Shown piece by piece: positions 5,028 through 62,598 of a DNA stretch of 64,000 nucleotides. Positions within the stretch are counted from its first letter, which is position 1, and each line of letters opens with the position of its first letter. Made by a program: the position numbers and the translations under genes. Source of the DNA: Serripes groenlandicus. Its lineage: Eukaryota > Mollusca > Bivalvia > Cardiida > Cardiidae. The stretch is taken from positions 110,375,543-110,439,542 of the forward strand of contig JASEVX010000003.1 of assembly GCA_031761405.1 (NCBI GenBank). The letters are read 5' to 3'. Under the pieces are notes generated by a model that saw only the letters and a list, made by a program, of their open reading frames with translations, did no database searches and was not told the origin of the DNA.

Positions 5028-5250
5028 TTGCGTATCGACCGGATTAGCCTTAGCATGCCGTGCAGGCTAACCCAGACAGACACTTTTCGCCTCCTGTGGA
5101 TTTTGTGTTTCAGGAATCATAATTCTATACCTCTATTCCCCCTGAAACGAAATGTGTCGGCCCAGATTAGCCTGCGCGGAATGCGCAAGCTATTCTGGGT
5201 CGATACATTACGCAGAGTACATAATGTTGGTTTTCTCGATGAACGGCTAA
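5028..5250 (+). mobile_element. GAGCC MITE, left end replaced
   Basis: It begins inside the left arm at TGCGTATCGACCGGATTAGC and runs to the right terminus TTGGTTTTCTCGATGAACGGC. The terminal GAGCC..AACAT segment of the left arm is missing and the hairpin just upstream takes its place. The 83-codon frame across it is a by-product. Confidence 0.8.
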
Positions 5251-6020
5251 AATGTATTTATGTATATTCAGCTTCGTAATGAATTGATACTTTAAATGGG
5301 CTGAACTCAAGATGCAGATAAACAATCTGATATGTTGAAGCTTCTGATAATATTGCTTATAGTTACAGCAAAGTAAGTAATAATTAGGTCAAACTATCTT
5401 GGCAGTAAATGTTGAAAAAGTCAATGAAAATGTATAAAATGTGGCTTACTCGATATGTTTACCCAGTGAAAATGAAGCATAAATTGTGTATTGTACTGGA
5501 ATGTGAAAAATTCTAGCACTAATTTTATTTCAGAATTATGATTCTAATATTTGAAGAGAACTTTTGAACAGTTTAAAACCTCGACTCTATACAAGTACTA
5601 TCTATACTCTGGAGGTCAGCACCTTTAATGTTTCTTATGAAAAGCATCCACGTTTCTTGTATTGACGTGTTGGTGAACGAGATAAACATCTTTTGGAATG
5701 CATTAAAGCTATTCAATACGGATAAAGCAGAAATTTAAATGAGACTTGAGTTCGCCTCACTTCAATTTCCTTTCAATAGTGCTGAAAAAAGGATGATTGA
5801 ATACAACCTGTCGATTGTATTGATTTTGTAATCGTATGAAACAGATAATGGTCGAAAACTGAATAAAACAGAGTTCTTTTACCTTTTATGTCACCAACAT
5901 GTAAAATGTTTCGAGTACATAACTTCATACGCGGTATTGTTAATAATCTATACATACGCATATATTTAATTCGATATTATTTACATTATCGAAATTTGAA
6001 CATGAACAGTAGGGCTTAAG
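5251..6020. other. no recognisable feature
   Basis: AT-rich. The largest frame is about 62 codons (minus strand, 5773-5961) with no recognisable motif. Confidence 0.5.
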
Positions 6021-16544: not shown

Positions 16545-18446
16545 TATTTGTTAGACGGCCTAAACGCAGCTCTGGTTTATCTGAATCAAATCTTTCTGCA
16601 AAATCATACATACTGTTACACTTGTCTTTGCTATCGATCTAATTTTGTCAATACGTATAAAAGACATGGTTTTCCTTTTCAGAAAATGAGATGAAGTAGA
16701 GGAAATCCGTAGATCAAAGAATGTGAACTATAGATAATGATGTTTCATAGTACTATGACCCTATTTTCAAGTTGAAGATCGTTACGATTGGTTTATTACT
16801 AAAAGTTTAATACAAATGTATGGTTTTTACTTGATTCCATTATTAAATAAATACACATATATATATATATACAAATGTACCTGTCTATACTGCTTTCATA
16901 TCCAAATGGACAAAAGCCCAGAAACTTTGGATGTCGGAAAACTTAAAAACTGTAACAGTAGACCATGTATCGGTATACAAGTTGGACCAAATGATCAGTT
17001 AACATTGTAACCAGTACACCATCGAGCGCATGTGCATTAATCGCGTGTGCTTGTTGTGATGCATCACACTTAACATTCTAGACCGTATTCGAAACGTACA
17101 GTCGTGGTAGTCGAAATGTTTAATTGTATTTCGCAAACATGGTTGTGTTTAGGTGTCATATAACATTGACAGTACTGCTTGGCACGCATTGCAAACGGGC
17201 TAGGGCTTGCAGAGAATCAACGTTTATGTTCAGTTGGTATGCTCAAAGCGGCAATACGGCATTATGTTTTTACACGGCGTTTGAAGTTTCATAAGAACAC
17301 GACAGAGTCTTTTGAACTCGATTAAGAAACAAGATAGTCATACCCGTGATTTTCCGTGTGCAAAGGTCATGACAACAAATTACCACTTAGGCTCACGCAC
17401 CTTTATAATCATTTTCAAACATACAGTTTGAATGCCCCGGTGTATTAATGGAATCTTTGCAAAACCGTGCGAAATCATTTGCCTGAGCACGTTATCCAAC
17501 CGCGACGACAATAAGTACGTCCTGTTAAACGTGACGTCCGAGTACTTCAAGGTTAGCCTACGGTATGAATAATGATCAAGTGTTCTGTTAACAAATTAGT
17601 CGATGTTTCGTTTGGATAGCAATGGCCGCCATGCAGGGTGTACCGTCGTAATAGAGAGATGCTATAGTTTTGTGATTCAAAGTCGCGCCTGATGTTTGGG
17701 AATGATCATGATTCGGGATGATTATAGTTTACCCCTCTCGTGCCAAGGGAAGACATTTAACATACGCAATAATGATATTGTCACTCAGCAAGATTTTGAG
17801 TTTTTCATGTATGCCCAGCGACGTCATATCACATTGCAACAGAACATAGATAGTCTACACGTCGAACATAATGTCAGAGACTTTTCGCGACGAATCAACA
17901 TTCACGCCTTTATAACCTTACGGCTTCTACACAACTCCTATGGAAGATGTGAATGGACACAATGGAACTGCGTGTACAACATGTGGCGAAAGATACTGTT
18001 GACGCTAAAGGAACTTGAATACTAGTTAGTGCAAATTTTGAATGCCATTTTTCAACAATCTGTTAACGTCTATCAGGCGTCGATGCCAAGGCTGCATTGA
18101 AAACAACATTCCTGCAGTTTTAACCTCTCCGATTTTTGAAAGATTTCTCATGATAATAAGTAATAGTTAGAACAAGTGTTTTTTTTTCATGTTTTTCTTC
18201 ATTATACATGACTAAATGATTTGGCCAATTATTGTTTTTCTTACTTTTAATCTTACTTTTAAACTTTTCAGTTCATGTAACATATCAGATAGGCACAGTT
18301 TCTTTATTTCCATTGATATAAACATTATAATGTAGCTTTTGGAAGTTGTCGTAGGATTGATTTTCTTTGCGTTCGACGTTAATAATAACGTTCAACTATA
18401 TAATTTAACGCAGATCTCTTAGTTCACAATTTTAGTAAACATGAAA
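16545..18446. other. no gene recognised; one 109-codon frame
   Basis: AT-rich, with (TA)n at 16857-16871. The plus frame at 17696-18025 (109 codons) has no recognisable motif, no splice context I can defend and no repeat match. I leave it uncalled. Confidence 0.45.
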
Positions 18447-18707
18447 TGAACCGTTCCACGAGAAAACCAACATTCTGGTATCTTCGAAATGTATCGACCC
18501 ATATCAACCTGTGCAGTCCACGCAGGCTAATCTGGGCCGACACATTCCGTCTAGGAGGGATAGAGGTATAGAGAATTTATTCTTTAAACAGAAATTCCAC
18601 ATGCGGCGACAAGTAGCTGTCCGGAAGCCTGTGCGGCCTGCTTAGGCTGATCCGGGTCGATACTGTACGCAAAGTCCACAATGTTGGTCTTCTCGTTGAA
18701 TGGCTCA
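18447..18707 (-). mobile_element. GAGCC MITE, complete copy
   Basis: Runs from TGAACCGTTCCACGAGAAAA to TTCTCGTTGAATGGCTCA, with the paired sub-terminal blocks ATGTATCGACCC and GGGTCGATACTGTACGCA. The internal order (CACATTCCGTCT first, GGCGACAAGTAGCTGTCC second) is the reverse of the copy at 1.2 kb, hence the minus orientation. Confidence 0.85.
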
Positions 18708-19784
18708 TATGTTTTCCGCTAAAATAGGGAAATTAGTAACTGTCTTCTACAGAGGTTTTCCATCTACAGAGGTGTTATTTCGACATGTCACACTGTGCCT
18801 CTAATTTCACTTTTACATCTCGATTTGTAAATATTGTAACCTCTTATGTATATATACTTACAACTTCAATTGTCGTCTAAAGCATTACTTTGTAACTTGT
18901 GTCGTTGGATTGTGTTGGGTTATTCATATATGCACATAGTTTCAGACAAAAAGAAACAGACAATAGTGTAAGTTGTCTAATATTCCCTGATACGAAATTC
19001 AGATTTTTTGCAGACAGGCTTGGATTTCCCTCTAGAACAATAAAACGCACGGAGCTTTAAATTAACCGTGTTCAAAATTGACAAACGCAACACAGGTCTG
19101 ATTGATTCTATTTTGATTCGTCCCTTAGTTTAATGTGGATTCGTCCGTCAGCTGAATTATTACAACTGTTTGTTTCTATTTCAACGATTCCTCTTACGCA
19201 TGTTCTAACGAATCAATGATGTGTACGAAGCATGACCTGACTGCATTCACTTTTCTTCTGTCGTGTCGCTGCATTATTATTTCCCTTCTAACCGCTATCA
19301 ATAACCCCACAATACATTTAATTAAACATTCTGTAAATAACTAGGCTTATCTTCGATGGAAATAACAAAGAAGAAACGAAAGATTGGGCTTATTCATATT
19401 TCATTTAGAGCCGTGGAACTCTAATCATATAGATTTAGCTGTTTTAGTCAATAATAACTGGAAATTGCTAGTTTGGTGGTAGAAACCCTTTGTTTATATT
19501 TATAGATACATTTATAAGTTATTTCAACTTATTCGACGTTAAATAAACACTATGTTCTATTTTAAAAATTTCCAAAAATAGATAATTAACAGTTGAGTAT
19601 TTATTGAGTTCTTTAGAGATATCAAAATATTAGGTTATTGACGTGTTAGGGTAATGAACATTCACATTGCATGGAACATTGATTCTGAAAAATAATTATA
19701 TCCTGATATTTAAGCACTTCCCACATGCGACAATTTTGAAAACATCTAGACAAAGTTAAGTAAATTTCTATATATAAGCTTTTA
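18708..19784. other. no recognisable feature
   Basis: AT-rich. No frame over 60 codons and no repeat structure noticed. Confidence 0.5.
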
Positions 19785-38955: not shown

Positions 38956-39005
38956 AAATTGCGTAAAAGCAGCAGGATAAAGATTGACTACATGAATGAC
39001 TTAAT

Positions 39006-39249
39006 TGAGCCGTCCCGCGAGAAAACCAACATTGTGGACTCTGCGTAACGTATCGACCCGGATCAGCCTTAGCATGCCGCGCAGGCTAAGTCGGACAGAC
39101 ACTTTTCGCCTCCTGTGGATGTTCTGTTTCAGGAATCCTTACTCTATATCCCTATCCCCCCTGAGACGGAATGTGTCGGCCGGATCAGTCTGCGCGGACA
39201 GCGCAGGCTGATCTGGTCGATACATTACGCAGATGTCTATCGCCGCAGC
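39006..39249 (+). mobile_element. GAGCC MITE, first of a tandem pair
   Basis: Starts TGAGCCGTCCCGCGAGAAAA and runs through the usual arms to GGTCGATACATTACGCAGA. Instead of the family terminus (TCCACAATGTTGG..) it then reads TGTCTATCGCCGCAGC. That alternative end is shared with the element at 58.2 kb. Confidence 0.85.
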
Positions 39250-39504
39250 CTCACGAGAAAACCAACATTGTGGACTCTGCGTAACGTATCGACCCGGATC
39301 AGCCTAAGCATGTCGCACAGGCTTACCCGGATAGACACTGTTCGCCTCCTGTGGATTTTCTGTTTCAGGAATCATTACTCTATACCTCCATCCCCCTGAG
39401 ACGGAATTTGTCGGCCCGGATCAGTCTGCGCGGACTGCGCAGGCTGATCTGGGTCAATACATTATGCAGAGTCTATAATGTTGGTTGTATCGCGGGACGG
39501 TTCA
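39250..39504 (+). mobile_element. GAGCC MITE, second of a tandem pair
   Basis: Starts at CTCACGAGAAAACCAACATT, lacking only the first bases of the terminus, and ends TTGGTTGTATCGCGGGACGG TTCA. It is very similar to the preceding copy, so the pair looks recent. Frames of 61-94 codons across the pair are by-products of the low stop density of this repeat. Confidence 0.85.
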
Positions 39505-40222
39505 TATATGTATTGCTCGCCGCCAAATGGCACTAACGCCGAGCACGAGGGAAAACAACATCAACAAACAAAAAACAAAGACATATTTGCATTCATATTA
39601 ACACTTTCGTAAAGTTGCGTACATCAGAATATAGGTTAACGACTGCATTGATAGTTTAACTAACACCATCGTAATTGCGTTCAAGTTGATACAGCGACAA
39701 TTGCTTTCAACCGATGGTATAGGTGGGGAAATAATTACATTTGAACAAATAATTCACGTGTTCGCGCAGCAGAAAGGCGAGGGGGTCAACAGCCTTACGG
39801 ATAAATGCTCTGTCGGGATACTACAAAGGTCGCAAATTAACAAAATGGCTATTCAAGTGAGAAAGCATTTCCACGGGGAATAAGCTCCTTCCTTTCTTTT
39901 TCAACTGGCACCTGACAGCCCGTTTTTCTTTTATCATACATTATTTACATAGATAACACAATTCACAGTAACTGAACGCAATTTTCAAAGATAAAGGAAA
40001 CCAGGGATATTTTCCTTATTTATGTTACCAATGATTCCAACTGAAAAAAAAAGTACTGCTGCTGCACAGTTTTAAAGTTGTTTACTTCAAGTGAAAGGTA
40101 TAAAGATCTACTATCATATTATCATAACAGAATTATCAATCTAGTACATAACGAAAACGAAAAATCGCTAGAATGATGAAGTGATCGTGTGTGATCAATT
40201 TCGCAGTGGATAACCTAGTTTC
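39505..40222. other. no gene recognised
   Basis: A 65-codon frame at 39686-39883 has no recognisable motif. AT-rich otherwise. Confidence 0.45.
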
Positions 40223-40436: not shown

Positions 40437-40579
40437 CGACAAGATACGATGGCGGGTAGTTGTTCTTATGTGTGTTTGATTACTAAAATATCAAACAATT
40501 AATTATAACAAATGGACGACAACAGATTGAATGGGCCTAGTCAGGCGAACATCGACCTTCAGCGACCAGCGAGGATCTA

Positions 40580-40634
40580 GATCACCCTGCACATCCACGT
40601 AGTCTGATCATAATCTTTTCGTTTCGCCATCTTG
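40580..40634 (+). repeat. 55 bp direct repeat bordering the minisatellite, left
   Basis: GATCACCCTGCACATCCACG TAGTCTGATCATAATC..CGTTTCGCCATCTTG recurs at 43731-43785 with few differences, directly outside the far end of the 41 bp array. The text resembles the GACCAGCCTGCGCATCC-type dispersed repeat. Confidence 0.85.
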
Positions 40635-40884
40635 ATTTAACCCCTTCAAAAGACAATGCGAATACATCCATCTTGATTTAACCCCTTCAAAAGACAATAT
40701 GAATACATCCTTATTGATGTAACCCCTTCAGAAGACAATCTGAATACATCCATCTTGATTTAACCCTTTCGGAAGACAATCTGAATACATCCATATTTAT
40801 TTAACCCCTTCAAAAGACAATATGAATACATCCATATTGATTTACCCCTTCAAAAGACAATCTGAATATATCCATATTGATTTA
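40631..40884 (+). repeat. 41 bp minisatellite, left part
   Basis: About six copies of a unit running TTTAACCCCTTCAAAAGACA then ATATGAATACATCCATATTGA, with AAAAG/GGAAG variants. Interrupted after 40884 by the 2.0 kb foldback-like element and resumed at 42901. Some units lack one A (40 bp). Confidence 0.95.
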
Positions 40885-40904
40885 TGTGGAAGGGTATTAA
40901 CGCA

Positions 40905-41090
40905 TAAATTGCATCTTTCCTTCTTACATTACAACTTGCATTCGTACATTTACATCTTGCATTCGTACATTCACATCTTGCTTTGTGACATTCACATCTT
41001 GCTTTGTGACATTCACATCATGCTTTGTACATCTTGTATTGTGACATGCACATCTTGCTTCCGTACATTTACATTTTGCGTTCATACATT
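40905..41090 (+). repeat. left arm sub-repeats of the foldback element
   Basis: Eight or so units of about 20 bp of the form ACATTCACATCTTGCTTTGTG, with CATTCGT variants near the outer end. They are the inverse complement of the units at 42590-42860. The 115-codon frame here is a by-product. Confidence 0.9.
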
Positions 41091-41310
41091 CAATATTACA
41101 TTCGATTATCTGACATTAGGATCGTCCTTGAATATTTTGCTTGATGGCATGATGCATTTTTTTATTTAATGTTTTAACCTTATTTCAAATTCTTCGCTAG
41201 ATCGGCGATTCATCGTCTAACTGTAAACAAATAATAGAACATGTCACAGAACAGAACGCGACCAAAACGGTTTTTGACAGCAGAAGGCGCATGTTCGGAA
41301 ACAAAATAAA
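41091..41310. other. unique stretch inside the foldback element, left
   Basis: About 220 bases between the left arm and the satellite. No frame or structure noticed. Confidence 0.5.
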
Positions 41311-42240
41311 TTTGACTGTCGACCTACGACCTATGTGCCAGGTCAACACTTTCTGAACATAAGTTTGACTGTCGACCTACGACCTACTCGCCAGATCAAC
41401 ACTATCTTAATGTAAATTTGACTGTCGACCTACGACCTACGAGCCAGGTCAACACTTTCTGAACATAAGTTTAACTGTCGACCTACGACCTACGCGCCAG
41501 GTCAACACTATCTTAATGTAAGTTTGACTGTCGACCTACGACCTACGAGCCAGGTCGACACTTTTTGAAAATAAATGTGAGTGTCGACCTACGACCTACG
41601 AGCCAGGTCGACACTTTCTGAAAATAAACGTGAGTGTCGACCTACGACCTACGAGCCAGGTCGACACTTTCTGAAAATAAATGTAAGTGTCGACCTACGA
41701 CCTACGAGCCAGGTCGACACTTTCTGAAAATAAACGTGAGTGTCGACCTACGACCTACGAGCCAGGTCGACACTTTCTGAAAATAAATGTGAGTGTCGAC
41801 CTACGACCTACGAGCCAGGTCGACACTTTCTGAAAATAAACGTGGGTGTCGACCTACGACCTACGAGCCAGGTCGACACTTTCTGAAATAAATGTGAGTG
41901 TCGACCTACGACCTTCGAGCCAGGTCGACACTTTCTGAAAATAAACGTGAGTGTCGACCTACGACCTACGAGCCAGGTCGACACTTTCTGAAAATAAATG
42001 TAAGTGTCGACCTACGACCTACGAGCCAGGTCGACACTTTCTGAAAATAAATGTGATTGTCGACCTTCGACCTACGAGCCAGGTCGACACTTTCTGAAAA
42101 TAAATGTGAGTGTCGAACTACGACCTACGAGCCAGGTCGACACTTTCTGAAAATAAATGTGACTGTCGACCTACGACCTACGAGCCAGGTCAACACTTTC
42201 TGAAAATAAATTTGAGTGTCGACCTACGAGCTACGACCTA
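41311..42240 (+). repeat. 53 bp satellite array, about 17.5 copies
   Basis: The unit reads GTGTCGACCTACGACCTACG AGCCAGGTCGACACTTTCTG AAAATAAATGTGA. GTCGACC and GGTCGAC inside it form an inverted pair. The first four units (to about 41520) are variant (TTTGACTGTC, GGTCAACAC). The middle units largely alternate AAATAAACGT with AAATAAATGT, a 106 bp higher-order period. One unit near 41885 has lost a base. Confidence 0.95.
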
Positions 42241-42589
42241 CGTGCTAACTTCACACACCTTATCTTCAAAGTATATTTGAGAGTCATTTACGGAAATTGC
42301 CGACAACACACACGTAGCGCCACCTGTTAGCATAATTTGGTTGTCGCGTCATTATTACACCAGGTGTCGCATCGTATTATGCCTTCTGTATTATGCTGTT
42401 TACATTCGGCTTTCTACATTCGGCTATTCGTCATTGTTACTGCTTTGCACACTGACATTTGTCATTCGTAAAGAGGAAGGCGTTATTGAAATTAGAATAT
42501 AAACATGAATTCTTCTCATCAAATTAATATTAATTGATGGTGTTAAATAACGAGAATAACAGACAATATTTATTGCAATATGTGCATAT
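42241..42589. other. unique stretch inside the foldback element, right
   Basis: Contains TTTACATTCGGCTTTCTACA TTCGGC doublets and a short palindrome (AATTAATATTAATT at about 42522). No frame. Confidence 0.5.
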
Positions 42590-42860
42590 CACATAGCAAG
42601 ACATAAAGCAAGATGTGCATGTCACAAAGCAAGATGTACAAAGCAAGATGTGCATGTCACAACGCAAGATGTACAAAGCAAGATGTGCATGTCACAACGC
42701 AATATGTACAAAGCATGATGTGCAAGTCACAAAGCAAGATGTACAAAGCAAAATGTGCATGTCACAACGCAAGATGTACAACGCATGATGTTCAAGTCAC
42801 AAAGCAAGATGTGAATGTACGAATGCAAGATGTAAATGTACGAATGCAAGTTGTAATGTA
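42590..42860 (-). repeat. right arm sub-repeats of the foldback element
   Basis: Tandem GCAAGATGTGCATGTCACAA and AAGCAAGATGTACAA units, the inverse of the left arm but with more copies (about 13). The arms are therefore unequal beyond the first 105 bp. The 82-codon Cys/His-looking frame (42613-42861) is a product of the repeat. Confidence 0.9.
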
Positions 42861-42900
42861 AGAAGGAAAGATGCAATTTATGCGTTAATACCCTTCCATA

Positions 42901-43720
42901 GATTTAACCCCTTCAAAAGACAATATGAATACATCCATATTGATTTACCCCTTCACTGGACAATCTGAGTACATCCATATTGATTTACCCATTCGGAAGA
43001 CAATCTGAATACATCCATATTGATATAACCCCTTCGGAAGACAATCTGAATACATCCATCTTGATTTAACCTCTTCACTGGACAATCTGAATACATCCAT
43101 CTTGATTTAACCCCTTCAAAAGACAATATGAATACATCCATATTGATTTACCCCTTCAAAAGACAATCTGAATATATCCATATTGATTTAACCCCTTCAA
43201 AAGACAATATGAATACATCCATATTGATTTACCCCTTCACTGGACAATCTGAGTACATCCATATTGATTTAACCCATTCGGAAGACAATCTGAATACATC
43301 CATATTGATATAACCCCTTCGGAAGACAATCTGAATACATCCATCATGATTTAACCCCTTCAAAAGACAATATGAATACATCCATATTGATTTACCCCTT
43401 CACTTGACAATCTGAGTACATCCATATTGATTTAACTCCTTCGGAAGACAATCTGAATACATCCATATTGATGTAATCCCTTCGGAAGACAATCTGAGTA
43501 CATCCATAGTGATTTAACCTCTTCAAAAGACAATATGAATACATCCATATTGATATAACCCCTTCGGAAGACAATCTAAATACATCCATCTTGATTTAAC
43601 CCCTTCGGAAAACAATCTGAATACATCTATAGTGATGTAACCCCTTCGGAAGACAATCTGAACATCCATATTGATGTAACCCCTTCACTGGACAATCTGA
43701 ATACATCCATATTGAGTTAA
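42901..43720 (+). repeat. 41 bp minisatellite, right part
   Basis: About 20 units of the same repeat as 40631-40884. Variants after the CTTC are AAAAGACAAT, GGAAGACAAT and ACTGGACAAT. Blocks of units recur in the same order (for example around 42905-43080 and 43195-43330), so multi-unit duplications occurred. Minus frames of 62-95 codons here are by-products. Confidence 0.95.
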
Positions 43721-43730
43721 CGATGATCTT

Positions 43731-43785
43731 GATCACCCTGCACATCCACGTAGTCTGATCATAATCATTCCGTTTTGCCATCTTG
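43731..43785 (+). repeat. 55 bp direct repeat bordering the minisatellite, right
   Basis: GATCACCCTGCACATCCACG TAGTCTGATCATAATC..CGTTTTGCCATCTTG. Partner of 40580-40634. Confidence 0.85.
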
Positions 43786-44470
43786 TTGGAAGAGAAAACC
43801 CGGACGTCTCTTGAAAACCGTGACAAACACCAACTATAAACGTTTACATTCAACGATACCAACCAAGACATTTTATACAACATTTTATTTTATTTTTTGC
43901 CATGTTTTTTTTCACCTCTCAATCAAGACACTTGAACAAGATGAGGTCACGTGTCTCCAGAATTGGAAAATGGCGTGAAGAGTGATTATGTTTCCGACAA
44001 GCAATTAAACTCAACAGCATGTATTGATGGCTTAGCAACGTTCTAATCCTCTTCCCCATTTCATGAACACAAACGTACTTTGTTGCGGAGGTGACCTGTA
44101 TGATTGTATGATGTAGAGTTATTTTGGCAACAATATCATTTGTCGTAAGATCTACACACATTGCATTTAGCTGAGAGATGAGTTCTTAATGTGTTAGTAT
44201 CCTGGTTTATTTCAAGATAAAACAAATCATATACACATATTTAGCGAACCTAATTATATATAAACCAATATTTCCCTGAAGTCAAGTTATGAACTGATTT
44301 ATGCTTAATCGATGAATAACACGTTTCTTCCCACGTACAAATTGAACCGCGTCATAGAAATTTACGACTGAATTTGGAAATGTCAAGATTAGTCAGAACT
44401 TGCGTCTATATTCTGTCCAGGATCGTCCTTATCCGTGAACATTTTATTACAACATCCTACATACTGCTGG
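43786..44470. other. no gene recognised
   Basis: AT-rich. Frames of 67 and 80 codons oppose each other at 43775-43978 and 43919-44161. No motif recognised. Confidence 0.45.
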
Positions 44471-45504: not shown

Positions 45505-46575
45505 AGGGACAATCTGAATACATCCCTAGTGATATAGCCCCTTCAAAAGACAATCTGAATACATCCCTATTGATTTAACCCCCTCGTGGGACAATCTTAA
45601 TACACACCTATTGATTTACCCCCTTCCAAGGACAATCTGAATACACCCCTATTGATTTACCCCCTTCACAGGACAATCTGAATACATCCCTATTGATTTA
45701 ACCCCTTCAAAAGACAATCTGAATACATCCCTATTGATTTACCCCCTTCACAGGACAATCTGAATACATCCCTATTGATTTAACCCCTTCAAAAGACAAT
45801 CTGAATACACCCTATTGTTTTACCCCCTTCACGGGACAATCTGAATACATCCCTATTGTTTTACCCCCTTCACGGGACAATCTTAATACATCCCTATTGA
45901 TTTAACCCCCTCGTGGGACAATCTGAATACACACCTATTGATTTACCCCCTTCAAAAGACAATCTGAATACATCCCTATTGATTTAACCCCCTCGTGGGA
46001 CAATCTGAATACACACCTATTGATTTACCCCCTTCCAAGGACAATCTTAATACATCCCTATTGTTTTACCCCCTTCACGGGACAATCTGAATACATCCCT
46101 ATTGTTTTACCCCCTTCACGGGACAATCTGAATACATCCCTATTGTTTTACCCCCTTCACGGGACAATCTGAATACATCCCTATTGTTTTACCCCCTTCA
46201 CGGGACAATCTGAATACATCCCTATTGATTTATCATGGGACAATCTGAATACACCCTATTGGTTTACCCCTTCACGGGACAATCTGAATACATCCCTATT
46301 GATTTACCCCCTTCACGGGACAATCTGAATACATCCCTATTGTTTTACCCCCTTCACGGGACAATCTAAATACATCCCTATCGATTAACTCCTTTCCCAG
46401 GACAATCTGAATACACCTAATTGATTAACCCCTTCCTAGAACAATCTGAGTAAACTTCTATTGCATTAACTCCTTCCCAGTACACTCTGAATACGCCACA
46501 ATTGATTACAACCCTTCCCATGATAATCTGCATACGCGTTATATTGATTTAACGCCTTCCAATGACATTTTGAAT
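45505..46575 (+). repeat. 41 bp minisatellite, second array
   Basis: About 26 units of GGGACAATCTGAATACATCC CTATTGATTTACCCCCTTCAC. It is the same family as the array at 40.6-43.7 kb but with locus-specific changes: CATCCCTA for CATCCATA, and CACGGGAC or CGTGGGAC for AAAAGAC. GTTTTACC and GATTTAACC variants cluster in runs. Units decay towards 46575. Confidence 0.95.
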
Positions 46576-47076
46576 CCCAAATCGTTATATTGTAAAGGTC
46601 ATGGAACTAGACTACATGTGTGTACACATATGTACATCCGCGGATTCAGTCTACACGGTTTCAATTATTTTGCTAAATGCATAAATGCCATTATGTAGAA
46701 AAAAATGACTAAGCTGGACAAATAGAACTCTTAAACCAAAATACCTGCACAGAAGAAAATGAAATAAATTACTATTTCCCTTTAAATGAATTGGATAGAA
46801 TCGTAAATGTGCATGGTGTTAGTTCTCTTTATTCGGAGTTAGAATGCGTAGGAATTAATGTATAAGAAATTTGGGATTGGATGCCCTAAATATCTGAAGT
46901 ACAAAACATGATTTATTCAACTGCAAGCCATTACAAGGGACAAACTGATTCCTCAGTAATGTTATAAACCAAGTCCTTATTTAGTTATTGTGCCAAGGGT
47001 TCTTGACTAAATGAAGGGTCATTAGATAAATGGCCGCATTCTTGAACAGAATGGGCTAATATAGGTGATCATTATT
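46576..47076. other. no recognisable feature
   Basis: AT-rich, no frame over 60 codons. Confidence 0.5.
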
Positions 47077-47332
47077 TGAGCCGCCACGCGAGAAAACCAT
47101 CATTAAGGACTCTGCGTAATATATCGAACCAGATCAGCCTCCGCAGTCCGCGCAGGCTAATCAGAGCCGACACATTCCGTCTCAGGGGTATAGAGTAATG
47201 ATTCCTGAAACAGAAAATCCACAAGAGGTGAAAAGTGTTGGTCCGGGTTAGCCTGCGCGGCATGTATAGTTTGATCCGGGTCGATACTTTACGACAATGT
47301 CCACAATGTTTGTTTTCTCGCGGGACGGCTCA
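47077..47332 (-). mobile_element. GAGCC MITE, complete copy
   Basis: TGAGCCGCCACGCGAGAAAA to TTTTCTCGCGGGACGGCTCA, with both sub-terminal blocks and the central CACATTCCGTCTCAGGGG and TCCTGAAACAGAAAATCCAC. Same internal order as the copy at 18.4 kb. Confidence 0.9.
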
Positions 47333-48109
47333 TTTGTGTAGAATTTAAGCATAAGTGTCAATGTAGAGAAGCTCGACCAGGATGCTCGTCAAGAAAAGAA
47401 ATGGGGGAAGTAATCGATGGCTGGAAATGTCATCCTGTTTACACTACATCACTGAAACAATGGTGTGTTTAAATCATGTTTACGGCCCAGTGTGTCTTAT
47501 CTTAACACAAATGAATCAGTTGTAATGCTATCCCCTTGAAACCCAGCGCCAAGGCCGGGCGACATTACTGCCGTTTTTTCTCAAACATTATACTTTTCTA
47601 TATATAGACATGGGTACATTTTGTAGCACTTATAGAAAGTCATATTGACGCAACAGTGTGAAAAAGTATCGGAAACTTCAAGCCACATTCTAATGGAACG
47701 TATGTGAAGGGTTATCTTCGTCTACACTAGTCGGAAAATAACCGAATTCTGGTTTCCAGTAGAAATAATGTGTCCAGAACGCAGCATCCTATTCCCCATT
47801 ACCGGTCCAATTAGGAACATTTTATGAACGCTGGAATCGCTCGGAATATTTTGTCAATGTCACAATTTGACGTTTATAACCGCACTCGGCCTGATCGAAT
47901 TGACGGGATTTCTCTGATTAATCATTCTCTGTTAATTAATACGTCTGGATAATGACATAGTTGATCATGTTTACAACAGATCCCTAAAGACAGAATTGTT
48001 TAAGGTGTTTTACAAATAATCAATTTTCAGTTTACGAAACAAAGTCTAAAAATAGATATATATTTATTATTAACCATTGTCCATTTACAGGCGCCTATTG
48101 ATGCAGTTG
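47333..48109. other. no recognisable feature
   Basis: AT-rich, no frame over 60 codons and no repeat noticed. Confidence 0.5.
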
Positions 48110-52719: not shown

Positions 52720-52830
52720 GAAACATTGTGACAAGAGCGGGAATTGCTCGAGATGAGATATTTCTCATGTTACCACAATGTGGTCTAATGAAGATTTATC
52801 AGAAACGATATGTGTGTGGGGAAGGGTTAA
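52720..52830 (-). repeat. TTAA-type MITE half copy ending at the minisatellite
   Basis: GAAACATTGTGACAAGAGCG through a hairpin-like GAGATGAGATATTTCTC to TCAGAAACGATATGTGTGTG GGGAAGGGTTAA. The terminal TTAA at 52827-52830 is also the last four bases of the 33 bp unit that repeats from 52831. Confidence 0.8.
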
Positions 52831-53752
52831 AGTCGCGTATATATATAGCGAAGTAAGGGTAAAAGTCGCGTATATCTATAGCGGAGTAAGGGTTAAAGTC
52901 GCTTATATCTAAAGCGGAGTAAGGGTTAAAGTCGCGTATATATATAGCGAAGTAAGGGTAAAAGTCGCGTATATCTATAGCGGAGTAAGGGTAAAAGTCG
53001 CGTATATCTATAGCGGAGTAAGGGTAAAAGTCGCGTATATATATAGCGAAGTAAGGGTAAAAGTCGCGTATATCTATAGCGGAGTAAGGGTTAAAGTCGC
53101 GTATATCTATAGCGAAGTAAGGGTTAAAGTCGCGTATATCTATAGCGGAGTAAGGGTTAAAGTCGCGTATATCTATAGCGAAGTAAGAGTAAAAGTCGCG
53201 TATATCTATAGCGGAGTAAGGGTTAAAGTCGCGTATATATATAGCGAAGTAAGGGTAAAAGTCGCGTATATCTATAGCAGAGTAAGGGTTAAAGTCGCGT
53301 ATATCTATAGCGAAGTAAGAGTAAAAGTCGCGTATATCTATAGCGGAGTAAGGGTTAAAGTCGCGTATATATATAGCGAAGTAAGGGTAAAAGTCGCGTA
53401 TATCTATAACGGAGTAAGGGTTAAAGTCGCGTATATATATAGCGGAGCAAGGGTTAAAGTCGCGTATATATATAGCGAAGTAAGGGTAAAAGTCGCGTAT
53501 ATCTATAGCGGAGTAAGGGTTAAAGTCGCGTATATATATAGCGGAGTAAGGGTTAAAGTCGCGTATATCTATAGCGGAGTAAGGGTTAAAGTCGCGTATA
53601 TCTATAGCGGAGTAAGGGTTGAAGTCGCGTATATCTATAGCGGAGTAAGGGTTAAAGTCGCGTATATCTATAGCGGAGTAAGGGTTAAAGTCGCGTATAT
53701 CTATAGCGGAGTAAGGGTTAAAGTCGCGTATATCTATAGCGGAGTAAGAGTA
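52831..53752. repeat. 33 bp minisatellite, about 28 copies
   Basis: The unit is AGTCGCGTATATCTATAGCG GAGTAAGGGTTAA, with a second type reading GTATATATATAGCGAAGTAAGGGTAAA. The types occur in mixed, partly alternating order. Because 33 is divisible by three and no stop falls in one frame, the minus strand is open for 324 codons (52799-53773) of an 11-residue repeat (YSAIDIRDFNP). I regard that frame as incidental. Confidence 0.95.
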
Positions 53753-53925
53753 ATGCGGAGTAATGCACGTCACCAGTTCATTCTGCTGATTAGCTCGGCT
53801 GTATAAACGATATTAAAGGAAAGCACCTTTTCTCAGTTAATGTAATGTCACTTATTTTATATGCGATCAGAGGAACGGTGTCTAGTTAAACTTTCAACAT
53901 GTCATTATGCGACTTAAAATATATA
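53753..53925. other. no recognisable feature
   Basis: Short spacer between the minisatellite and a GAGCC element. Confidence 0.4.
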
Positions 53926-54188
53926 TGAGCCGTTCCACGAGTAAACCAACATTATGGACTCTGCGTAATGTATCGACCCAAATGAGTCTGCGCAATCCGC
54001 GTAAGCTAAACCGGGCCGACACATTCTGTATACGGGGGATAGAGGAATAGAATAATGATTTCTGAAACAGAAAATCCACAGGAGGCGAAAAGTGTATGTC
54101 CGAGTAAGCATGCTTGGCATGCTTAGGCTGATCCGGGTCGATAATTTACGCAGAGCCCACACTGTTTGTTTTATCGTGGAACGTCTCA
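53926..54188 (-). mobile_element. GAGCC MITE, complete copy
   Basis: TGAGCCGTTCCACGAGTAAA to TTTTATCGTGGAACGTCTCA. Flanked by ATATA on the left and TATAT on the right, consistent with a TA target. The overlapping frames of 61 and 91 codons are by-products. Confidence 0.9.
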
Positions 54189-55757
54189 TATATATTTATG
54201 CACACGTGTCGCCTTATCGCCATCTCTTCACGCCACCCTCTTTATCTCTCTTTTATATTTTTTATCTCTCTTTTTTTATTTCACTCCGTAATACCGCATT
54301 TAATAGTATCCCTCTCTTTTTCTCCCTCCTCCTTCATTCTGATCGTTCCTATCCCGCATCTGTATCTCATTCTCTGTCTGACTTTCTCTCGTAAAGTTTA
54401 CCAGCACAAAATGCATTCGAATCAGATTTTGAAGCCAATTATTCTAATCATTTATCTTTTAAAGTCTAAAATGGTGCCAGTGTTCCTATCTATGTTGACT
54501 GCAAAGTTAATTCAATTGAAATATAAAAAAAAAGCTTTGACAATATAGTGCCAAAGAACAGTACTTCAAAATCAGGATTATTTTACTCCTGGCTGTCCTT
54601 TGATTTTCTTTAATACATCGTAATGTTATCCCATATATCAACTTACTCTCGCATTGCTTTACGCTATCGAGCAGTCATTTCGCTGTCAAAGTTGACTACG
54701 TAAAGTCTGACAGCGTGCGGAGTCTAATAATGGTCCTTATAGTTTCGGCCTACACAAGGTCTTGTTTGTTTTTAGGACCAATATTTCAGTTTATTTTTCG
54801 GCGATAGCTGATTAACGTGGGTTTTGACCTAGATATTAAAAACAAATTATCTAGATTGTAGACCAATCAAATGTTGTATTTAATGAATAATGTCGAAGAA
54901 ATAAAGGAAATTAAATGTTTTCATTGGTTCATAGTTAAGTTGGCGATCCTTCGAGAGGTAATAAATAGGGAAGTTTTAAATGAAATGTTCTGCATACTAA
55001 CCTTTAATTGTTTTCCTTAAGAATTAAATTTCAGTGAAAAAAATCAGTGAAAACGTATGAAATATAATATTTAAGAGCAAAATATTAATTATTTTTGAAA
55101 CATGATAAGTTTTCAGTTATTTATCGTCAATTGAAACTAATACTGTGTTACAGGAGCCTCGCGTAATCTCCAGTGTAATGGATGTTGACTTTGATTGTCA
55201 AGTGAAAGGTCTGTGGTTCGCTTACCGGCAGAGGCAAGCTTTTTCTCTCTCTCTCATTCATATCAAAACCAAAGTATATATATGAACTAAAACATTTATA
55301 AACCAAATATCTTTTCTTATTAACTACCTAAAATATATCGGATGGCTTTTATCAAAATATACAACTTATCCAGTAATCAGGTGCTTGCTTATTGACCATT
55401 CGTCAAAAACGTTTATCAATTAGATCACCAGTTTGAGCTAACATTATGGCGTCATGAATATGAAAAACCTGTTATGACATATTTTTTTATATAATGTAAA
55501 TTACGGCAGCTTCTTTTGAGCGACTCATTTCCTTTCAAAAGACTGAATGCCTAATAAAATATGTAACCCACCTATGTCTTAGCAACTCTTTACATGGACT
55601 AATTATGCAACTCTGGATTCTTGATTCATTTTTCTAGTCATTATTTTGGTAAATGTCAAATTGCTTACGTCATTAATAATATATGACATTTTCAACAGAA
55701 CAACGTGTAATTATTTTTCGCCCTAGTATTGCAACAAAAAAAAACTCAACCAGAAAT
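54189..55757. other. no gene recognised; pyrimidine-rich stretch
   Basis: 54218-54390 is strongly T/C-rich (CTCTTTTTCTCCCTCCTCCTT) and gives overlapping 100- and 116-codon frames rich in Ser, Leu and Phe. I treat those as artefacts of composition. A (CT)n patch lies near 55243-55257. The rest is AT-rich. Confidence 0.5.
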
Positions 55758-56018
55758 GATCCTACCCGCGAGAAAACCAACAATATGGCATCTGCGTAAT
55801 GTATCTACCCAGATCAGCTTGCGCAGTCCGCACAGACTGATCCGGGGCGACACATTCCGTCTCATGGATATAGAAGTATAGAGTAATGATTCCTGAAACA
55901 GAACATTTACAGGAGGCGAAAAGTGTCTGTCCGGGTTAGCTTGTGCGCATGCTTAGGCTGTTCCGGGTCGATACTTTACGCAGAGTCCACAGTGTTGGTT
56001 TTCTCGCTGGACGGCTCA
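55758..56018 (-). mobile_element. GAGCC MITE, complete copy
   Basis: TGATCCTACCCGCGAGAAAA to TTTTCTCGCTGGACGGCTCA, with the usual paired blocks (GCGTAATGTATCTACCC / GGGTCGATACTTTACGC). The left terminus is mutated from TGAGCCGT. Confidence 0.9.
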
Positions 56019-56648
56019 AATGTAGACCCACAGTAGAAGATAGCGATTGTGGGTTAACGGAGGGTTTATAGATGGACGGGGAGATTACAAAAATAGTGTT
56101 AGCTTACTTAGATCACAAATAACAGAAGTTGAACCATAGTGTCTGACCTATACATTGTGATGATAGAGCTTTTTTGTTTTCATCTATATTTAGAGCCAAT
56201 TTTAAAATTTAGTCATCGAATTATAAAGTGTAGGGTTTGCATATTTAAGCCAATGATTGATTTCGACAATTCAGTTTTTGCAGAAATATATTTATTCTGT
56301 CCAAAATTGTTATCCGAATCTCCTCAAAAAAATGCAACTAGAAATATGCATACATTGCCTGTTAAATCACGTACATACACATATATCAGGTTAAAAATAA
56401 TGTGTCCATCGGTTAATACATAATGGAACTATTAACATGTCGCTACGGATTTAACGAAAACTCCTACAAAGTAAATAAAATATAAGCATGCCAAGTCCAT
56501 TCAAAATTAGGCGATTCGCGTGTGCGAGCTGATGTATGCGCCTGCATTCAGCCGATCCAGTATTGTAACTATAAATGAGAAACTAACAATTAAGCCCAGG
56601 TGCCTATTTGGTCTGATGCCCAGACCTCAGACGCTTAACGCGGCTCGA
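56019..56648. other. no gene recognised
   Basis: A 94-codon frame at 56139-56423 and an 84-codon frame at 56520-56774 have no recognisable motif. Confidence 0.45.
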
Positions 56649-59810: not shown

Positions 59811-60672
59811 TCACTACAACGTTGACTTGAAGATAACATTGAGTATAGGCATGTGTGTCCTGTCCTGCTGTTCGAGACATTAAACATCACTTGCGCATTT
59901 GGTTATGTACAACTTTAAACACATAAATGGATCAATATTTACGAAGATAATCATGCAGTGTCATCTGTGTATACATTTATTCAAACAAATATTTAAGTAG
60001 TGATATAAGAATTTTACAACAGTCATGGGTAATGCTACTGCTTGTACGAACTCAGCATGAGTCAATGCGTCAAGTGTGTTGGTTTAGACTAAAGTATTAT
60101 ATCTACATTTGTAGGTTGTTTTCAATACATCAAGTTTATTTGAGATTTGCGATATAAGTCTGGAACGTACTTTCTCCACATCTAGAACATTCAACAGGAA
60201 ATTAAATGTCTGACACATTGTTAATGTATTAAACTATTGGTTACTAGAATTGTTTTATTTTGTTTATTTTCTGTTTTAGTTAACGTGTTATTCTGTCCGG
60301 TTATTTGAGAAAAACTGAGTTATTTAAAGGATAAAGAACATTGTGTGTTACCCTAGTTACATGTATATGAAGGCTACAGTAAACGACGAGTACATATTAG
60401 TAAAGACATGAATCAAAATGGAAAACTTCGAACATGATACAGACCAATTGTTGATCAAGTAGTAAATAGTATCATTGGATGTGATTGTCAGTTCCTAGCA
60501 ATAAATTTAAATCGTCTGTCCTGCGATGCTTGTTCGAAAAGAAGATAAACTCCTGTCATTGAATCTTTGTCTAAAGATGCCTCATTAAAACAATAGGTGT
60601 GCATTATAACAGTAACTATACCGACAAAATATAAGATTGCTTAGTAAGTATTAAGTTAACCACATAAACATA
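59811..60672. other. no recognisable feature
   Basis: AT-rich, no frame over 60 codons. Confidence 0.5.
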
Positions 60673-60935
60673 TGAGCCATCCCGCGAGAAAACCAACATT
60701 ATGCCATCTGCGTAATGTATCGACCCAGATAAGCCTGCGCAGTCCGCGCAGACTGATCCGGGCCGACTCATTCTGTATCAGGGTGATAGAGGTACAGAGT
60801 AATGATTCCTGAAACAGGAAAACCACAGGAGGCGAACATTGTCTATCCGGGTTAGCCTGCGTGGCATGCCTAGGCTGATCCGGGTCGATACTTTACGCAG
60901 TGTCCACAATGTTGGTTTTCTCGAGGGTCGGCTCA
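60673..60935 (-). mobile_element. GAGCC MITE, complete copy
   Basis: TGAGCCATCCCGCGAGAAAA to TTTTCTCGAGGGTCGGCTCA. TA stands on both sides (CATA|TGAGCC, GGCTCA|TATA). Very similar to the 47 and 55.8 kb copies in internal order. Confidence 0.9.
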
Positions 60936-61262
60936 TATAGACATACATACATATAAACATATATATAATTTTATTTTTCGCTGTTTATTCAGTATTTCGG
61001 CTGCTAGTTCACATACATGTACGCATGGATGTCGTGCCCTTTTCGTGCCAGTACTACCCAAACATTAGTCCTAGGCAACTGGCTACCATCCCACATATAT
61101 TGTAATTGTATTGGTGGAAGAAGATCGACGTTTGTCACAATATATTTTGTCAAACGTCGAATTGAACAAATGGCTTGGCAACGATTTGAACTCAAGTCCC
61201 TTTGATAGACAGCCTCGTACTAAAGTGTCCCATCGCTGCTCGACGACATCTATACAAAAGAC
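60936..61262. other. no gene recognised
   Basis: Several overlapping frames of 62-64 codons on both strands and no motif. A weak inverted pair (TGTCACAATATATTTTGTCA / AACGTCG) lies near 61130-61155. Confidence 0.4.
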
Positions 61263-61345: not shown

Positions 61346-62198
61346 TTACATTGTAATACCATTTTATTTTACTACTTTTACTCTTTTTCTCGTATTATTC
61401 TTGAAACAGACGATTCTAGGCTAGCAAACGATGTGAACACATTTAATAATAAACGATGATAAACATTTCTTCCGACACGCATTAGGGACCTGTCTATCTA
61501 CTATAAAATTACCCAAATGTTTTTATCTAAAATATAATTAATCCATCTAAATTTCCATTTAATGATCGCTATAATGATATCCTGCAATTACACCTTACAG
61601 CGTTTGTCAAACCAGTTTTGTTGATAAATGATATTAACGGTAATTACTATGTGTAAGGTGTGTTTTATTATGAAATATCGGAACTATCTCCCTCCATTTT
61701 ACATTTCACGCGCTAATTGAAAGTGTAGTCAATTTAAATCAGTGTATGTTGATCAGTATAGCGATACTTCGATAAAGTTGGTTCTGCATGCTGTTTGACC
61801 TACGTTCGTGTGTTCGTGTATTCCTTCGTTCGTTTGTCACGCGTTTTTTTTTTTTTTTTTTTACCATTCATTTAAGCTTGATTTAAGAGCCTAATGTTCC
61901 AGAAGTATGCTCTTTTTTTGAAAAGCATTTGCATTCAGTGTAGATTCCTATCAACATGCACATCCGCAGAGACTGATCTGAATCGGTACTGAACGCTAAC
62001 CAGGCACAGAAGCGTTAAAGCAAGTCTGACTAACCGTGTACATTTGTATGGTACACCATGGATGCACTGACTCATATTTATCTACACGTATTGGAATTAC
62101 ATTAAGGATTGTTTTCCTGGAGCACATCTTAATTAATTTACTCTGCTCGGCGAGCGCTCGTCGCAAAGCTGTCATTTGATGCAACATATGATTTGATA
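61346..62198. other. no gene recognised; poly-T run
   Basis: A run of 19 T lies at 61844-61862. A short GTTCGTGTGTTCGTGTATTC repeat precedes it. CATCCGCAGAGACTGATCTG near 61963 is a scrap of the GACCAGCCTGCG-type repeat. Confidence 0.45.
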
Positions 62199-62598
62199 TG
62201 AGCCGTCCCGCGAGAAAACCAACGTTGTGGACTGTTCAAAAAGCATCGACCCGGATCAGCCTAAGCATGCCGCGCAGGCTAACGCGGACAGACACTTTTC
62301 GCCTCCTGGGGATTTCCTGTTGCAAGGAATCATTACTCTATACCTCTATCCCCAAGAGACGGAAAGTGTCGGCCCGTGTCCGCGCAGACTGATCCGGCCG
62401 ATACTTTCCTTCTAAAGGAGGATAGATAGAGTAGTGATTCCTGAAACAGAAAAATCCACAGGAGGCGAAACGTGTTTATCCGGGTAGGCCTGTGTGGCAT
62501 GCTTAGGCTGATCCGGGTCGATACTTTACGCATAGTCCACAATGTTGGTTTTCTCACTAGACGGCCTACACATTGATTATTGCCAAGCTACGCCCCTG
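62199..62598 (+). mobile_element. expanded GAGCC MITE fused to a CAGGGGCGTAGC end
   Basis: TGAGCCGTCCCGCGAGAAAA starts a GAGCC element about 110 bp longer than the others. Near 62380-62420 it repeats the CGCAGACTGATCCGG..GATACTTTCC block and then has a second central part (GTAGTGATTCCTGAAACAG). At the right, TTTTCTCACTAGACGGC passes directly into CTACACATTGATTATTGCCA AGCTACGCCCCTG. This is the inverse of the left end of the 58.2 kb element with the same junction. Confidence 0.8.

Follow-up and report, generated by a model that had tools for sequence, protein, structure and literature searches.

Is the insert that breaks a 41-bp minisatellite of Serripes groenlandicus a mobile element, and how did a satellite come to form its core? 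In the window analyzed here, a stretch of 64,000 nucleotides, the minisatellite (40627–43721) is interrupted only once, as an earlier note made from the sequence letters had reported, by an element of 2,016 bp at 40885–42900; the span given in that note, 40879–42906, took in both copies of the target as well. The inverted ends (40887–41007 and 42778–42898) are 96% complementary over 121 nt, slightly longer than the near-identity of about 105 bp noticed previously. Inward from the ends follow arms of tandem repeats, spacers, and a core made of a 53-bp satellite, hereafter sat53 (table 1). The arms are present as described, but their units, taken to be of about 20 bp, measure 21 and 35 bp, whereas the estimate of about 17 satellite copies agrees well with the 17.6 copies (92% match) counted by TRF. 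The left end of the window copy reads TGTGG, whereas the 44 other complete copies considered below start with TATGG. GATTTA, said to stand on both sides of the insert and once in an intact unit, does so: when the flanks are fused with a single GATTTA, the resulting 40-mer has one further occurrence, with 0 mismatches, in the same 41-bp array. It is thus a normal array unit, and the 6-base duplication is therefore real.

Table 1. The insert and its host minisatellite, with positions counted in the window.
Feature	Position	Strand	Basis or remark
Host 41-bp minisatellite, left part (target)	40627..40884	+	TRF; array resumes at 42901
Target duplication GATTTA, left copy	40879..40884	.	Single in paralogous empty site
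Left terminal inverted repeat (TIR)	40885..41007	+	Begins TGTGG; inverted-repeat comparison, genome matches
Left arm, 21/35-bp tandem repeats	40912..41104	+	TRF; overlaps inner part of TIR
Left spacer (spL)	41120..41300	+	Comparison of copies; inner limit varies by core type
Core, sat53 x 17.6	41303..42236	+	TRF; core type of 31/45 complete copies
24 bp, spR1 q1–24	42237..42260	+	With one mismatch, also the edge of a sat53 array at C1 221.77 Mb
Right spacer: rest of spR1, and spR2	42261..42600	+	Comparison of copies
Right arm, 35/21-bp tandem repeats	42575..42877	-	TRF; inverted relative to left arm
Right terminal inverted repeat (..CCATA)	42778..42900	-	Inverted pairs
Target duplication GATTTA, right copy	42901..42906	.	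Flank comparison
Host 41-bp minisatellite, right part	42901..43721	+	TRF

Scans of the window with Rfam (gathering cut-offs) and ARAGORN (bacterial code) gave no match. Several other repeats lie in it. A similar sequence of ~50 bp (..gatcaccctgcacatccacgtagtctgatcataat..) bounds the minisatellite on both sides (40570–40630 and 43728–43790, by eye), and a further 41-bp array occupies 45506–46575. Outside the element, a 33-bp tandem repeat at 52822–53748 (28 copies, 93%) has reading frames open on both strands. A dispersed repeat of ~250 bp occurs in both orientations (1229–1486, 5031–5263, 18436–18712, 39005–39513, 47073–47359, 53917–54210, 55753–56024, 60662–60944, and 62188–62565) and is tandem at 39018–39476.

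By searching the genome (1,758,966,737 bases, or 1.76 Gb, in 1,739 contigs) with the first 123 bp of the element, we obtained 472 candidates, the best 40 of which were scored and gave 53 matches. Among these best 40, 40 of the 53 matches are 100% identical over 121–123 bp, and the remaining 13 (75–91%) lie in or beside the arms at the same places; in the best candidates scored, 121 of the 123 bp of the left TIR recur at 100% identity at 39 other places. The exact 17-bp end TGGAAGGGTATTAACGC occurs 346 times genome-wide (172 forward and 174 reverse) against 0 for the reversed control, and this is therefore not chance. Among the first 100 places listed for the 17-mer, 82 form 41 convergent pairs 1.1–6.1 kb apart, and 18 are unpaired (L025, L027, L028, and 15 others), the latter being truncated, mutated, or nested copies. 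The 41 pairs, two more pairs met in the 123-bp search (L009 and L010), the window copy, and L077 make up a set of 45 complete copies, 1.1–6.1 kb long, which have the ~120-bp ends and the tandem-repeat arms in common; all were picked by the exact 17-bp end, and old copies are under-sampled in this set.

The boundaries of these copies are constant: the element ends in ..CCATA in 45/45 and starts with TATGG in 44/45, in a set picked by the 17-mer TGGAAGGG.., which leaves the outermost two bases as the only free test of the termini. Identical 6-bp target duplications, of 33 different sequences, flank 38 of the 45 copies; two more (L019 and L020) have a 6-bp duplication with one mismatch, and five (L015, L022, L033, L035, and L054) have none. 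A single insertion is common to six copies with the ~62-bp core (L031, L038, L050, L051, L052, and L055), whose duplicated flanks are 96.8–100% identical, and no other two of the 45 copies have flanks alike up to the element edge. The independent sites number 40, 33 of them with exact duplications, and the target is symmetric at 32 of these 33 (L077 left out). Three bases out from the duplication, 33 of 64 half-sites have a G (17.4% expected; binomial p ~5e-10), and the first base of the duplication is C or G in 44 of 64 (34.8% expected; p ~3e-8), p-values that take half-sites as independent and concern positions picked after the profile had been seen.

At two paralogous empty sites the target is single: GATTTA for the window copy and CTAGTA for L016, whose flanks run on into each other across one CTAGTA within a repeat nested in L044. 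A third case is weak, as L042 lies in a 72-bp minisatellite and its joined flank has 4 mismatches in 40 with neighboring units. The earlier note had counted against its own reading the finding of the end at this place only, or of other copies with no target duplication and no consistent boundary; the search it had proposed instead returned many copies with consistent boundaries, so that the element is not confined to the window, as well as the duplications and empty sites that it had suggested looking for. Taken together, the many copies, target duplications, constant ends, and empty sites argue that the element is a mobile, non-autonomous DNA transposon, in agreement with the mobility that the note had proposed for an inverted-repeat element with a satellite core.

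The comparison of core satellites between copies, also suggested previously, revealed that the same ends and arms enclose cores of four kinds. The core consists of sat53 in 31 of the 45 copies, of a 62-bp repeat in 8, of a ~160-bp repeat in 4, and of an older core in 2 (L043 and L077), in which a 1.67-kb core without these satellites consists of older core joined to another repeat. The ~160-bp core is one that we take to resemble a Pearl/Helentron-type repeat; relatives of it (71–82%) are found outside the complete element in L026 and form arrays in L028. Independent sites with an exact duplication of their own number three for the 62-bp core, four for the ~160-bp core, and two for the L043 core. 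Each core type thus has exact duplications at at least two independent sites and has therefore moved after forming.

The junctions with the spacers also differ between core types. The inner limit of the left spacer is at position 181 in sat53 copies (except L009) and in L043, at 138 in copies with the ~160-bp core, and at 93 in those with the 62-bp core, with local losses in L009, L011, L036, L044, and L046. The right spacer starts at 1 or 2 in the sat53 copies that keep it, at 25 in the ~160-bp forms, and at 38 in L043; it was not found in the 62-bp forms, and L010 and L016 are without it via two different junctions. Of the L043 core, about 363 bp is an older interior that L072, L073, and L076 also have; what remains is part of another multi-copy repeat. 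This other repeat (about 1670–2970 of the L043 locus; also on C852, C1185, C1074, and elsewhere) has an inner ~170-bp tandem stretch and, in several genome copies, a ~84-bp end that recurs inverted nearby; part of it is joined to the older core in L043 and L077. We rejected it as a transposon nested in L043 with ~84-bp inverted ends, the second inverted end not having been found there. Position 40 of the TIR tells sat53 copies from the others: non-sat53 copies have G there at 27 of their 28 ends, and sat53 copies have T at 57 of 62, which makes the latter look like a younger branch that has been amplified. On balance, we lean toward a modular shuttle, in which IS3EU-type ends and arms would be the vehicle and the interior would have been replaced independently by genomic 53-bp, 62-bp, and Pearl-like ~160-bp repeats, each loaded version transposing alone and seeding dispersed arrays.

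Arm and core lengths vary from copy to copy. When the 31 sat53 arrays were cut into units, variant D was among the first five units in 22, and 17 ended in one common edge unit (labelled I, or L when cut in another phase); many units were unlabelled or out of phase, and the order is shared by most arrays, not all. The simplest reading would be one ancestral cargo array with growth and loss in its middle, rather than 31 captures. L031 and L038, which are the same insertion in duplicated flanks, differ in their arms by steps of 21 and 153 bp and have an unchanged core; arms therefore change length in place. Homogenization of left and right TIRs within a copy was considered and set aside, the permutation being confounded by subfamilies and by one rearranged end.

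As to the origin of sat53, an exact 46-mer of it occurs 745 times genome-wide (control, 0). Among the first 100 places listed, all on C1, 79 lie in 12 elements that have the exact 17-bp end, and the other 21 fall by coordinates into 7 further clusters, judged from pieces of 400–600 bp with 671 bp more at three. One cluster (98.136 Mb, 10 places) looks, in two pieces, like a truncated element, and two show only sat53 in the pieces examined. At 221.77 Mb (L082), the edge of the array consists of right-spacer positions 1–24, with one mismatch, followed by unrelated DNA. The arrays at 27.88, 40.75, and 135.97 Mb have another junction in common, and no part of the element except sat53 was matched in their pieces; at 27.88 Mb (L088, L084), the flank is shared over its last ~100 bp only, and beyond lies a different repeat. 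At 40.75 Mb (L089/L085) and 135.97 Mb (L090/L086) on C1, a long-period tandem repeat is joined to sat53.

Positions q1–24 of spR1 are absent from the four copies with the ~160-bp core, whose right spacer starts at q25. Because the array edge at 221.77 Mb stops at 24 and this spacer starts at 25, positions 1–24 would have come in with the satellite, and the simplest reading is that a sat53 array was captured by the element together with 24 bp of its flank. This reading draws on one array edge (L082) and on three arrays seen in short pieces, and loss of the ends of an element at this junction would give a picture like the L082 edge. We regard as possible, if rather doubtful, a history in which the mobile element is the same but sat53 was born inside it, the outside arrays being escaped or decayed copies (compare TIR-220 of Tetris). 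Such a birth would suit the 79 of the first 100 listed units that lie in 12 elements and the 10 more in an apparent truncated one, and the order of unit variants common to most arrays suggests a long residence in the element. It accords poorly with the three arrays that share another junction, in pieces without element parts except sat53, and with an edge that ends at q24, exactly where the right spacer of the ~160-bp-core copies begins. Capture with 24 bp of flank is the reading that we favor.

The ends and the target length also bear on the superfamily. IS3EU elements are reported to end in TA..TA and usually to duplicate 6 bp, GingerRoot elements to duplicate 6 bp and mostly to end in TA..TA (PMC10045372), and the IS3EU elements described in fungi end in TAYGG..CCRTA, with TIRs over 30 bp (PMC12730594). 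Both traits are found here, with 6-bp duplications exact in 38 of 45 copies and with one mismatch in two more, and with TA..TA termini to which the left end of the window copy (TGTGG) is the exception. We therefore think it quite probable that the element is a non-autonomous cut-and-paste transposon of IS3EU/GingerRoot type, a superfamily placement drawn solely from ends and target length; it is called IS3EU-like and non-autonomous because the protein that defines autonomous members, an IS3/IS481-like DDE transposase, was not found. Polintons/Mavericks are large elements with integrase and polymerase genes; this description does not fit the complete copies, which measure 1.1–6.1 kb and of which the longest, L023, has a unique interior that reads as a nested retroelement-like piece, though larger autonomous relatives may exist. 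The 6-bp target duplication of Polintons (PMC10045372) is found here too.

The foldback, Galileo-like superfamily proposed in the earlier note was not supported, even though "foldback" remains apt for the shape. A true Foldback/Galileo/Tetris-type element appears improbable: the long inverted arms of tandem repeats and the variable non-coding middle are as in Tetris, but the duplications are of 6 bp (38/45 exact) and the ends are TATGG..CCATA. Galileo duplicates 7 bp of its target and FB 9 bp. In Tetris, the target duplications are of 8–10 bp (PMC4079207). Still less credible is a Helentron/HINE (Pearl-like) element with a satellite core, the usual carrier of satellites in bivalves, against which stand the long terminal inverted repeats and the exact 6-bp duplications. 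One core type, the ~160-bp repeat, is presumably Pearl-like. HINEs have the same plan, with constant flanks and a variable satellite middle, but are described as making no target duplication and preferring oligo-T sites (PMC7492417), neither of which applies to the copies found here. That the structure is not mobile at all, being a local palindrome in the minisatellite or a sequence spread by segmental duplication only, can practically be dismissed: six ~62-bp-core copies are indeed one insertion in duplicated flanks, but only those six share flanks, and there are 33 different exact duplications and two empty sites.

No frame of at least 150 codons is present in 35 of the 45 complete copies. 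Among the 10 copies that have such frames, those of L011, L023, and L044 are arm repeats or a retroelement-like piece, and one frame of L030 has no Pfam match; 10 peptides scanned against Pfam gave no transposase above the cut-off. No transposase was seen at the 18 unpaired ends, where a minority of the frames was scanned. A pattern search for ends identical over exactly the outer 19 bp and diverging at position 20 gave no match. We rejected L023, the longest copy (6.1 kb), as an autonomous form, since its extra DNA, nested in the left arm, reads by eye as a Ty3/gypsy-like piece, and the core of L043 as coding, since older core makes up its first ~363 bp and another multi-copy repeat the remainder. 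No Pfam match was obtained for an exon-like peptide of this core, and a 58-residue frame gives below-cut-off matches to KilA-N (E 0.008) and HTH_Tnp_1_2 (E 0.061), on which we do not rely.

Longer forms (L072/L076 and L073) run from the left end through the arm, the left spacer, and ~363 bp to the start of a gene-like frame, which has no Pfam match. L072 and L076 have the same left flank and are probably one locus on two contigs. The right end was not seen in 14.4 kb (L072 and L074), 9.5 kb (L076), or 12.9 kb (L073 and L075, with an N stretch), and no complete autonomous copy was found among the 45 complete copies or the longer forms examined. L072, L073, and L076 lie on C855, C937, and C1141, and their gene-like stretch has close matches at three places on C1518. 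In L074, Mutator-like transposase frames (PF20700) stand beside a frame with a PML_C match; we rejected the PF20700 frames as belonging to the element, as they are 8–10 kb from its left end and on the other strand.

A mechanism can be proposed in which a transposase supplied in trans by an IS3EU-like element would recognize the ends and the whole unit, satellite included, would be cut and pasted into a symmetric target, the interior being tolerated because only the ends would be needed. Pieces of the interior might be replaced in the interrupted repair of a donor break, which would bring unrelated DNA in between the arms; in one such case the sat53 array would have been captured with 24 bp of flank, and that form would then have amplified. 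Slippage and unequal exchange may later have altered the repeat numbers in arms and core. Both the replacement of interiors by interrupted break repair and slippage with unequal exchange are standard ideas.

That satellites lie inside mobile elements, mainly Helentrons, is already known. The present element, which has many copies in this large genome and mostly carries a satellite as cargo, offers a clear case of how satellite DNA can be moved to new places, the spreading route that the earlier note had envisaged for a satellite inside a mobile inverted-repeat element. The scattering of short satellite arrays, and their birth in or pick-up by transposons, are usually argued from decayed remnants; here duplications, empty sites, shared junctions, and unit order can still be read, which allows capture, transposition, and later growth to be told apart and dated.

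In the open-licence literature, as far as its accessible portions go, we found no IS3EU-type element with exchangeable satellite cores described. IS3EU and GingerRoot elements resemble ours in their 6-bp duplications and TA..TA termini (fungal TAYGG..CCRTA, TATGG..CCATA here), whereas 21/35-bp arms and a satellite core are not part of their descriptions in the sections used here (PMC10045372, PMC12730594). CgiSat35 and CgiSat47 of Crassostrea gigas are satellites annotated, in a table only, as DNA/IS3EU; unlike sat53, they have monomers of 690 and 129 bp, and the table's context gives no element structure (PMC8268682). The miDNA4 and Xstir MITEs of Xenopus are likewise inverted-repeat elements carrying tandem repeats, and capture of a pre-existing repeat has been proposed for miDNA4 in a review, but miDNA4 belongs to Tc1/mariner, and the part of the review that concerns these MITEs describes neither core exchange nor tandem-repeat arms (PMC12628747). 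Tetris of Drosophila virilis, for which only three structurally complete copies were reported, is similar in its long TIRs with internal tandem repeats, its variable non-coding middle, the variation of array length between allelic copies, and its link with satellite DNA, but differs in its 8–10 bp duplications and in having the satellite in the TIRs, not in the core (PMC4079207). The non-autonomous Helentrons Cg_HINE and Pearl of bivalves, for which capture or cut-and-replace has been discussed, also combine related flanks with different central satellite arrays, but they are rolling-circle elements with no target duplication, oligo-T insertion, and a 3' palindrome (PMC7492417); for the element described here, in contrast to such Helentrons, the carrier of the satellites would belong to a cut-and-paste superfamily.
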